NCBI RefSeq assembly: GCF_025755255.1
Contig: NZ_JALIEB010000005.1
Span: forward strand, 62,001-126,000
Source: Roseobacter sinensis
GTDB taxonomy: Bacteria > Pseudomonadota > Alphaproteobacteria > Rhodobacterales > Rhodobacteraceae
DNA length: 64,000 nucleotides
Reading direction: 5' to 3'
The translations under genes were made by a program, and so were the position numbers. This document shows, piece by piece, positions 3,931 through 13,411 of this stretch (position 1 is the stretch's first letter; every line of letters starts with the position of its first letter). The notes under the pieces are model-generated. The model made no database searches. It saw only the letters and a program-made list of their open reading frames with translations, and was not told where the DNA came from.

Positions 3931-3994
3931 GGGCGCTCTTATCGTTGGTGACCTCCGTTGTATGACGGGCCTCGCGGGGCAATGCAACGACGCG

Positions 3995-4591
3995 TTACCT
4001 GGGCCAGAGCACAGGATAGAGCGAGGCGATGAGCAGGGCGGCCATGGTCCGGTTGAACACCCGCAGGCGGCGCGGGTTGGTCAGCACCCGGGCGAGCTGT
4101 TGTCCGAGTACGGTCCAGGCCGTAATCGCAGGCAGGTTCACACTGGCGAAGATCACCGCAACGAGCGCGAAGGCGGCGAGCGTCTGGCTGGGCGCGTAGA
4201 CCGAGAGCGCGGTCAGCGCCATGGCCCAGGCCTTGGGGTTGACCCATTGGAACGCAGCGGCCTGCAGGAAGGTCATCGGGCGCCCCTTGCCCGCGTCGCC
4301 GCGGATCGGGGCCGCGGTGGCGATCTTCCAGGCGAGATAGCTCAGGTAAAGCACCGAGATCACCTTCAGGACCGTGTAGCTCACCGGGTAGCTCTCGAAC
4401 ACCTGCGCCAACCCTGCGCCCACCAAGACGATCATCAGGCCGAAGCCTACCGAGATGCCGAGCATATGCGGGATCGAGCGGCTGAAGCCGTAATTGGCGC
4501 CTGAGGCCATGAGCATGAGGTTGTTGGGTCCGGGTGTTGCGGAGGTGACCAGCGCGAAGAGGACAAGGGCGGTAAGAAGCTCGACTGACAT
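3995..4591 (-). CDS. LysE/RhtB family amino acid exporter
   Basis: A 198-residue inner-membrane protein with about five to six hydrophobic segments. It carries the LysE/RhtB N-terminal signature [17 protein letters not shown] near residues 19-35 and the conserved [16 protein letters not shown] segment in the middle. This family exports amino acids or homoserine lactone-like compounds; the substrate cannot be read from sequence. It is divergently transcribed from an Lrp/AsnC regulator that starts at 4664, the standard arrangement in which the regulator switches on the exporter when the amino acid accumulates. Confidence 0.92.
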
Positions 4592-10729: not shown

Positions 10730-11032
10730 AGGCTGTCTGACGCCAGCTATTATAAGGAGATGCCGTTCCGCGGTCTCCTAAGCGGACTACGTCAGCTTTC
10801 GTAAGGCCCGATGGACCTCGAACGGCCACGCACGCGCTGAGCTCCGGTCTTGGCGGCGCTCAAGCCGCCCTCCGGAGCAGTGACTTCTGGATGCCGTTCG
10901 CCGCCTTTTTCCTTCCGGACGCCGCATTGCGGCCCAATTGGACATTTTGCGTTTCCACCGCATGGGCCGGGAGCGAGACGCATGGATACGCTGATTGGAT
11001 ACGTCCAATTCACGATGTAGACACTCTTCAGT
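10730..11032. other. Gene-free stretch
   Basis: About 300 bases between the transaminase and the broken hydroxylase gene. I see short GC-rich complementary segments (for example GGCGGCGCTCAAGCCGCC near 10853-10870) but no tract of T after them. There is no ORF with a ribosome binding site and protein-like composition, and no recognisable RNA. Confidence 0.4.
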
Positions 11033-11976
11033 ATGAACCAACGGCTCGCGCTGGTTTGCCTAGTTGGCACAATTGTTGTGGCTTTTGGTGTCTGGTGCTA
11101 TCGGGGCATGCCCGGTGGCTCTTTTGTCAAATGGTTGTTGCCGGCAAAGGTCTATCTGCATCGCTCTAACCTGCTGGACATAAAACTCTTCTTTACCATG
11201 CGTGCCATCAGCTTTTTGGGCCGATGAGCAACGTCTCCTTTCCCGCAACTGTTGCATTATATGTCTTGTCCTGGCTTTTTGGACGGGCGGCTGGTGACTT
11301 TGACGTCCCTCCGGTCAGCTGGGATCGGAGCGTGCTGGCCACACTCATAATCGTGCGGGCCTCGGACTTCTGCAAGTACTGGGCCCACCGCCTGCATCAT
11401 GAGTGGAAGGTGCTTTGGCCGTTTCACGCCGTGCATCATTCCGCAGATGTTCTGACCCCGCTGACGTTGCAAAGGGTTCATCCTGTCGAGCCGCTGATCC
11501 GTAACCTGCTGATCACGGTGATTGTCGGAGCGATTCAGGGGGTGCTTCTTTTCGTGTTGATCGGGCGGATCGATCTCGTGACCCTGGGTGGTGCGAACGC
11601 GATGTATGTCGTGTTCAACATGCTGGGCGCAAACCTGCGTCACAGCCACATCTGGCTCAGCTATGGGCGGGTCATGGAGCACATCCTCATTTCGCCTGCT
11701 CAGCATCAGATCCATCATTCGGTGGCGGTCGAACATCACAACAAGAACTACGGCTCGATGTTCGCGATCTGGGACTGGATGTTCGGAACCCTCTACGCGC
11801 CAGAAAGGGTGAGGACCTCACTTTCGGCGTCTCTGACGAAACCGGAAAGCAGATGGCCCAGCCCTACAACACATTGCGCGAGGCCCTGCTCAAACCGTTC
11901 CGCGAATGCTGGGATGCGATACAGGAGCAACGGGCAGGCCGGGCGCAGAGAAGGGCGCAGCTGCCCGAGCTCGTGA
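11033..11976 (+). pseudogene. Fatty acid hydroxylase / sterol desaturase family protein, frame-broken
   Basis: A membrane di-iron hydroxylase family protein spread over three frames. The first part, 11033-11227, encodes MNQRLALVCLVGTIVVAFGV and ends LLDIKLFFTMRAISFLGR. The next frame, from about 11224, carries the His boxes HRLHH, HAVHH and HQIHH and the segment GSMFAIWDWMFGTLYAPE. After the AAAGGG at 11804-11809 the protein-like continuation (KGEDLTFGVSDETGKQMAQP) is again in the -1 frame. The natural frame otherwise runs on to a non-protein-like tail and TGA at 11974-11976. Family members hydroxylate or desaturate lipids at the inner membrane. Repaired, it would read straight into the acyltransferase. 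Confidence 0.75.
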
Positions 11977-13099
11977 TGTCGCAGGGCTTTTCGATCTGGC
12001 TGGACGTCTTGCGCGCCGCGGCTGCGATCACCGTGTTGTTTGGACATATGGCGCATATCCGGTTCACGCGCGGCGACTATTACGTCTTGCGGGAAATCAA
12101 TATCGCCAGCGATGCGGTCATCGTGTTCTTTGTGCTGTCGGGCGTGGTCATCGCCTACACGGCCAAACGCGATGGCACGCTGGAGCGCTTCGCCTTCAAC
12201 CGCCTGACGCGGCTTTGGTCCGTGGTCCTTGCAGCGCTGGTGCTAACGGTGCTGTTCGACGCAATCGGGACCGCCGTGCGGCCGGATGCTTATCCTGCGC
12301 GGTTCTACAACTCGGTTCCGGTGTCGGAGATGTTTCTGCGCGGGCTGACTTTCACCAATGAGTGGCAGGGCTTCTGGGACCGCGTGCGGCTTGGGACAAA
12401 CGGGCCGCTCTGGTCGCTCAGCTATGAGGCTGGCTTCTATATGCTGTTCGGTGTGGTTGTTTTTCTGCGCGGTGCCTTGCGCTGGGTTCTGCTGGCCTTG
12501 CTCGTGCTGCTGGTCGGGTTGCCCATTCTGGCGCTGTTGCCCGCGTGGCTCATGGGCGTTCTGGTTTGGCACAGCAGACGTACCGAACAGGCCTCGAGAG
12601 CAACCGATGTGGCGCGCGCGATTTTGGGCATTGTGTTGCTGATCGGCCTGAAAGTCGCGGGTCTGCCGCAACTGTTGACCGATGTGACGACCCAGTGGCT
12701 TGCGCCGCTCAACCACCACGCCGTGCTGGGCTATTCAGATGAGGTGTTGTGGAACCTGGTGATAGCGTTCTGCGTCGCTCTGCACCTCGCCGGCGTTAAG
12801 AATATGGCCGATCGGCGCGCGCCGAGGCCAGAGGGGATATCCGTGCGATCGGTTCGCTGGATCGCGGGGGCGAGTTTTCTATCTATGTGATGCACTATCC
12901 CACGCTGCATCTGCTCGACGCGACCTTGCCGGAAGACCTGCCGGCCTATGATCTGTGGCTACTGGCGCTGACGTTGACGGTGTGTTTCGTATTCGCTGCG
13001 GTCTTCGAGCGGCCCCTCGGGACCATCCGTGCCAGGGTGTTGCCGCTGTGGAAGGCCCTGTGCTGGCCCATCTCGGCGGCCAGATCGACCGCGCCCTGA
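11976..13099 (+). pseudogene. Acyltransferase 3 family membrane protein, frame-broken near the 3' end
   Basis: An integral membrane O-acyltransferase of the Acyltransferase-3/OafA type. The N-terminus MSQGFSIWLDVLRAAAAITV carries the family Arg, and FGHM supplies the usual His; IVFFVLSGVVIAY and NGPLWSLSYEAGFYMLF follow. The frame ends at a TGA at 12888-12890. The missing last transmembrane part (VMHYPTLHLLDATLPEDLPA to about 13099) is in the -1 frame after TTTT at 12875-12878. In the same frame, codons upstream of the ATG at 11976 stay open and encode the end of the hydroxylase. The substrate is unknown; such enzymes acylate surface sugars or lipids. Confidence 0.75.
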
Positions 13100-13411
13100 T
13101 CAGCCCTTTCCGACGTTCTCTTCGAAAGCCTTTTCAAAGGCCTTTTGCTGGTCGCCAGTGGCTTCGGTCTGATAGTTGGCTTTCCACTCGGCCATCGTCA
13201 TGCCGTAGAAGAGCTCGCGCGCCTCGTCCTTGCTCATCTCGATGCCCTTCTCGGCCGCAGCTTCCTGGTACCAGCGGCTCAGGCAGTTGCGGCAGAAGCC
13301 GGCGAGGTTCATCATGTCGATGTTCTGAACATCGGTGCGGTCTTCCATGAGGTGCTTTTGAAGGCGCCGGAAGGCGGCGGCCTGAAGTTCGATTTCTGTC
13401 TGAGTTGGCAT
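13100..13411 (-). CDS. DUF1244 family protein
   Basis: A 103-residue cytosolic protein of unknown function, well conserved in proteobacteria. It has the family core FRRLQKHLMEDRTDVQNIDM and GFCRNCLSRWYQEAA. The C40-x2-C43 pair could bind metal or be redox-active. The segment SKDEARELFYGMTMAEWK follows. The start MPTQTEIELQ was chosen over a distant ATG at 13954 because coding character begins there. It is convergent with the acyltransferase remnant and divergent from pyruvate kinase. Confidence 0.88.
   Translation of the reverse strand: MPTQTEIELQAAAFRRLQKHLMEDRTDVQNIDMMNLAGFCRNCLSRWYQEAAAEKGIEMSKDEARELFYGMTMAEWKANYQTEATGDQQKAFEKAFEENVGKG

Follow-up and report, generated by a model that had tools for sequence, protein, structure and literature searches.

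What does a coding sequence encode when it changes reading frame three times within two kilobases: two genes, one broken gene, or one protein read across frames? This question is raised by positions 11033–13099 of the window, the 64,000-nucleotide stretch of the Roseobacter sinensis genome analysed here (a draft assembly of 77 contigs), where coding sequence occurs in three frames and four open stretches, with successive −1 shifts that amount to three single-base losses. A preliminary description, made from the letters of the window, had proposed that the locus, once repaired, would read as a single protein of about 690 residues joining a di-iron lipid hydroxylase to an acyltransferase-3, and had offered gene decay, systematic sequencing loss in runs and programmed slippage to explain the breaks. 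The comparison with related genomes reveals that a fused hydroxylase–acyltransferase protein exists intact in related bacteria. The window copy is most likely an ordinary recent pseudogene of this real fusion architecture, so that the interest of the locus lies in the fusion and not in the breaks; in itself, the copy is merely a broken example of the fusion family.

A coding sequence in three frames

The closest intact relative, G216, carries both the FA_hydroxylase and Acyl_transf_3 domains in an intact single frame of 688 residues, about 76% identical to the window segments over 668 codons. Read against it, the locus comprises the following features.

11033–11227, + strand: hydroxylase N-terminal fragment, frame 2, from ATG to a premature stop (64 amino acids), aligning with about the first 60 residues of G216
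11213–11224, + strand: first frame break, one base fewer than in G216
11224–11976, + strand: hydroxylase-core ORF, frame 1 (250 amino acids; PF04116), hydroxylase-like only to about 11808 and later out of register
11803–11812, + strand: second frame break, from the nucleotide alignment with G216
11853–12890, + strand: ORF with the hydroxylase tail and the acyltransferase domain, frame 0 (345 amino acids; PF01757), truncated by the third break
11931–11978, + strand: fusion linker and junction, from the hydroxylase tail to the acyltransferase Met, with no stop between
12866–12878, + strand: third frame break, from the nucleotide alignment with G216
12887–13099, + strand: acyltransferase C-terminal fragment, frame 2 (70 amino acids)

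All four stretches align to G216, and for this reason they are not chance coding stretches; moreover, the aligned segments contain no internal stop codon. At the nucleotide level, the window and the intact fused gene of G216 share 74% identity, with single-base gaps in the window near 11214, 11810 and 12874, which confirms the three −1 breaks of the preliminary description and places them within a few bases of where it had set them. The other gaps in the alignment cancel or sum to multiples of three. The three changes occur in the same direction and together restore the first frame. The further claim that each break falls within a run of identical bases stood only in part: the first and third losses lie within T runs or beside them, the alignment allowing both, but the second aligns at about 11810, adjoining the AAAGGG run and outside it. 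In G216, none of the three places has a run of at least five, and only the second and the third have one of four. The frame of the 11853–12890 ORF is open further upstream and resembles the relatives from about 11810 onward. The Met at the junction corresponds to the acyltransferase start in relatives with separate genes, and an out-of-frame TGA overlaps its ATG there (TGATG, 11974–11978).

The FA_hydroxylase family (PF04116) was matched in the 11224–11976 ORF with 88.6 bits against a curated cut-off of 31. Acyl_transf_3 (PF01757) reached 64.2 bits in the window (cut-off 31) over profile positions 2–234 of 326, before the third break, compared with 81 bits over positions 2–324 in intact G216. 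The two short end pieces of the locus, each taken alone in the profile search, gave no family match. Characteristic motifs of both domains were located as follows.

11386–11400, + strand: histidine box 1, HRLHH (motif search)
11425–11439, + strand: histidine box 2, HAVHH (motif search)
11704–11718, + strand: histidine box 3, HQIHH (motif search)
12012–12047, + strand: acyltransferase-3 R-x10-H motif
12201–12212, + strand: acyltransferase-3 RxxR motif (RLTR)

The histidines of the three boxes, which we take to be the di-iron ligands of the FA_hydroxylase family (PF04116), are invariant among 10 aligned fused proteins. The two acyltransferase-3 motifs are those given in the accessible part of PMC7448272. 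The only named hydroxylase model matched was the one for the ornithine lipid hydroxylase OlsE (NF052566), with 69.3 bits for the window and 67.9 for G216, far below the equivalog cut-off of 475, and the fused acyltransferase lies outside that model. An SGNH domain was not matched in G216 at E 0.01, its acyltransferase domain extending to residue 654 of 688.

Upstream of the first fragment, a leader is also recognizable.

10982–11020, + strand: leader with an ATG in the hydroxylase frame, 12 codons and then an in-frame TAG

This leader represents the 17-residue N-terminal extension of the other members, interrupted in the window and open in the 16 other fused members. The TAG at 11018 was at one point counted as a fourth lesion, a candidate withdrawn because intact G216 also has an in-frame leader TAG, at a different codon, two codons earlier than that of the window. 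The translation start may simply have shifted to 11033. On its own account, the leader region of the window and G216 (10982–11032 in the window) can be read in two ways: the translation start may have been displaced downstream in these two copies, or the leader may constitute a short upstream ORF.

The fusion in related bacteria

When the acyltransferase stretch was searched against 394 genomes of the family, 21 had a match, the window's own included, and G216 ranked first among the rest. In named genomes, an acyltransferase alignment detected 126 relatives; the best 80 of these, together with 21 loci from further genomes, make up a set of 101 relative loci, 13 duplicates among them; the window's own protein as query gave no matches in the named genomes. 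With duplicates included, these 101 loci comprise 17 in which both domains are fused in one frame, a state that the window copy lacks, 76 with separate adjacent genes, five more with separate frames whose matches slightly overlap or touch, and three without a hydroxylase in the piece examined. Besides G216, the 16 intact fusions come from named records, within the best 80 of the 126 relatives, and belong to Roseovarius, Ruegeria, Marivita, Sulfitobacter, Antarcticimicrobium and others. The 17 intact fused genes encode 670–708 residues, counted from the aligned start, which bears out the protein of about 690 residues predicted from the window.

Aligning the repaired protein to close relatives had been put forward as the way to find a fused, in-frame version, and G216 provides it. 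Relatives with two separate intact genes had been named as what would speak against a fusion, and most relatives are indeed of this kind (81 of the 101 loci, that is, the 76 and the five), but those nearest to the window copy carry the fusion. Two genomes with separate genes, G053 and G013, were found first and suggested that the fusion was an illusion, an idea overturned by intact G216. In plasmids, no fused relative was detected at E 1e-20, the 10 records obtained all covering the hydroxylase half only at less than 35% identity, nor any acyltransferase at E 1e-10.

The separate genes overlap at their stop and start codons in 54 of the 81 loci, with ATGA (or GTGA) in 47, TGATG in seven and other arrangements in 27; without duplicates, the corresponding numbers among 68 loci are 39, six and 23. 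Such overlaps are usual for coupled translation. Two-gene units of alphaproteobacteria (for instance L118, L120 and L151) thus share with the fusion the same two adjacent domains in the same order, but are made as two proteins with a stop between, whereas the clade of the window has one protein. In three of the 17 fused genes (L085, L087 and L094) the internal acyltransferase start Met has become Ile, consistent with translation exclusively as a single protein. Within about 3–4 kb on each side of the named loci, no neighbour cluster was present in more than seven loci, and the neighbourhood gave no functional hint. At another locus, 4001–5545 of L136 from an uncultured Sulfitobacter isolate, the acyltransferase matches in two pieces, possibly another frame break.

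For the trees, the 13 duplicate loci and the three without hydroxylase were dropped. In a FastTree analysis of 86 rows, one clade of 19 holds all 18 fused copies, window included, together with one split copy (G053), and its support was 0.996 for the full alignment and 0.903 and 0.956 for each half alone. With IQ-TREE on 38 rows, 48 of the 86 being left out, the fused clade obtained 98/99, and the window and G216 appeared as sisters with 100/100. The split copy of G053 (L020, 2316–4441) consists of separate, overlapping hydroxylase and acyltransferase genes inside the fused clade, and is likely a re-split. A strict fused-only clade without G053 is not in the tree, which has two state changes, although it survives an AU test (p 0.062). 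As judged from these trees, the simplest account would be one fusion followed by one re-split; alternatively, two independent fusions may have taken place. In 12 of the 17 fused genes, a stop codon in another frame continues to overlap the position of the former acyltransferase start. This is consistent with a frame change within the linker of two overlapping genes as the origin of the fusion, although the residues preferred after a Met would produce the same pattern. The fusion probably arose in this manner from two overlapping, co-translated genes.

As for its genomic location, the fused gene occupies a single inter-gene stretch.

10730–13104, no strand: inter-gene stretch holding the fused gene, between an aminotransferase gene and the next gene

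In G015, about 23 bases separate the flanking genes at this site; in G007, G011 and G014, the site contains about 520, 650 and 1,150 bases, respectively, without a match to the fusion protein. The absence of the fused gene at this site in four genomes of the same genus suggests a horizontal gain, and the window copy was probably acquired in this way. Among 18 other genomes of the genus, only G013 has a relative of the acyltransferase, with separate genes and on a different contig from the G013 pyruvate kinase gene. A side observation concerns the distance separating the aminotransferase gene from the one preceding pyruvate kinase, which varies between about 23 and about 2,375 bases across five genomes (the window, L164, L168, L169 and L170), perhaps a small insertion hot spot.

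Origin of the frame breaks

We consider it likely that the window copy belongs to a genuine natural fusion family, the intact members of which are one membrane hydroxylase/acyltransferase-3 protein, and that it has recently been inactivated. The reading frame is disabled in the window copy, and the neighbouring genes are intact when compared with G011, a genome of the same genus. In that comparison, 74 ORFs were mapped to the window and its flanks and no real frame break was found in any window gene, the survey covering window genes with a G011 relative and some rows being shadow ORFs of others. Split matches occurred in two of the 74 rows, a shadow ORF outside the window and a LysE-type gene at about 3974–4591; one row, outside the window, was partial, and a few window rows match from residue 60–88 onward of a longer G011 ORF, which was read as start choice. 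A set of 57 window genes, picked and trimmed by hand from this comparison, spans 52,008 bases with 444 runs of at least four and 78 runs of at least five. Since these neighbours are unbroken despite their runs, a general sequencing loss in runs is unlikely, and this explanation of the preliminary description is further disfavoured by the one loss outside a run. Of the three explanations originally offered, gene decay is the best fit. Separately, the gene at 3974–4591 (− strand), which we take to be a LysE-type transporter, is open in the window and seemingly broken in G011.

Substitution patterns had also been suggested as a way to recognize decay. The dN/dS between the window and G216 is 0.099, similar to the values for intact pairs at a comparable distance (0.086 for L089–L094 and 0.097 for L085–L087), with dS near saturation; four more distant pairs gave 0.18–0.34. 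When the window codons beside each break are excluded, 118 changes were inferred on the window branch versus 68 on that of G216 (36/20/62 and 15/19/34 at codon positions 1/2/3), with third-position shares of 53% versus 50%. Of 240 columns that do not vary among all the other members, seven are changed in the window; intact members tested alike without the window show 0 to 14 changes in 245 to 259 columns. With G216 also out of the reference, the window has 10 and G216 six substitutions at 251 invariant columns (gaps uncounted). A dN/dS like that of intact pairs implies that the inactivation, if real, is recent. The patterns carry no sign of long decay, which weighs against inactivation unless it is recent, and the catalytic motifs are intact.

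The same traits would be expected if the three losses were sequencing or assembly errors confined to one gene, the true gene being an intact fusion. In favour of this, each loss removes one base within or close to a short run, stop codons and motif losses are absent, the dN/dS is low and the assembly is a draft. Nevertheless, such errors would have spared the 57 neighbour genes with all their runs, the second loss lies outside any run, and the chance of all three falling here, taken as uniform by length, is about 6e-5, a figure that serves as a guide only because the gene was picked beforehand for its breaks. Altogether, we see error restricted to this gene as rather unlikely, and recent inactivation as the better reading.

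Far less credit is due to the idea that the locus works as separate pieces, re-split like G053, with a 250-residue hydroxylase from 11224 ending at TGATG and an acyltransferase from 11976. The TGA/ATG overlap at 11974–11978 is indeed the one seen in seven of the 81 unfused relatives, and a re-split copy (L020) occurs inside the fused clade, but the 250-residue ORF has no N-terminal membrane part, its last ~55 residues are out of register, and the acyltransferase is deprived of its C-terminal portion by the third break. Finally, programmed slippage or frameshifting joining the frames into a full protein is very unlikely: the three changes share their direction and jointly restore the first frame, and five of the 17 fused relatives, like the window, have runs of five in the vicinity of the first place, but three successive events would be required, a run of at least five around the second place is found in only one of the 17 fused relatives, all of which read through, and G216, with which alone the third place was compared, reads through without any run of at least five at the three places.

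Structure and putative function of the intact protein

AlphaFold, applied to one of the intact fusions (703 residues) with 64 alignment rows, gave a confident model with a pLDDT of 89.0 and a pTM of 0.69, and the fold matches were taken from this whole-protein model. In VIA-align, the hydroxylase half resembles Scs7p (Z 6.2, rmsd 4.7, 182 residues, 13% identity), and the acyltransferase half the transmembrane acyltransferases HGSNAT (Z 11.9, rmsd 5.9, 282 residues) and GWT1 (Z 9.7, rmsd 5.7, 269 residues), both at 10–13% identity, MurJ being the next different protein with Z 5.4; all these values are below the VIA-align guide of about 13 for helical folds, a range that may mean a mere common helical arrangement. 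Scs7p is a yeast sphingolipid alpha-hydroxylase, a eukaryotic protein without acyltransferase and similar in fold to the hydroxylase half with a modest Z, and HGSNAT and GWT1 have other substrates. HGSNAT is named beside acyltransferase-3 (AT3) proteins in the accessible part of PMC12423673, the title of which claims a shared fold. Solved structures searched by sequence (E up to 0.1) and Foldseek with the whole model (E 0.001 or better) gave no match.

The intact member is pictured as one membrane protein, in which a short linker connects an N-terminal di-iron-type hydroxylase domain, from the fatty-acid-hydroxylase family, to an acyltransferase-3 domain at the C-terminus. The former would hydroxylate a membrane lipid, and the latter would carry an acyl group across the membrane onto this new hydroxyl, in such a way that the protein would make and consume its own intermediate. 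We tentatively propose, as a possibility somewhat short of an even chance, that the fused enzyme makes its own acceptor by hydroxylating a membrane lipid that the joined AT3 domain acylates, yielding an undescribed acylated hydroxy-lipid in Rhodobacterales. A difficulty for this scheme is that the active site of such hydroxylases should face the cytosol. According to the accessible part of PMC9558356, acyltransferase-3 proteins are believed to pass their acyl group to the outer side, and the lipid would consequently have to cross the membrane. The broader notion that hydroxylase and acyltransferase act in a shared pathway is supported, at the level of gene organization, by their conserved adjacency and their fusion. 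In this regard, the fusion ties an orphan AT3 to an orphan lipid-type hydroxylase and predicts one pathway for many unfused pairs.

Among the papers listed in searches of the open-access literature, no description of the hydroxylase–AT3 domain pair was found, and the words hydroxylase and desaturase are absent from the main text of PMC9558356 and PMC7448272. The one paper holding both Pfam numbers (PMC3534327) was set aside, since its accessible part names the two families separately, in worm proteins, and does not concern this fusion. The AT3 fusions named in the accessible part of PMC9558356 are those with SGNH and racemase domains, and the same 2022 review asks whether AT3-only proteins need a partner protein. 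The hydroxylase–AT3 family offers a concrete partner candidate for that question and, if the proposal is true, a self-acceptor enzyme would be one answer to how AT3 proteins without an SGNH domain find their acceptor. The known fusions OafA, OafB and OatA (with SGNH) and VanT (with a racemase) share the AT3 membrane domain, the R-x10-H and RxxR motifs and the presence of a partner enzyme with the family of the window, as far as the accessible parts of PMC9558356 and PMC7448272 describe them, but their partners are C-terminal, whereas here the partner is an N-terminal hydroxylase.
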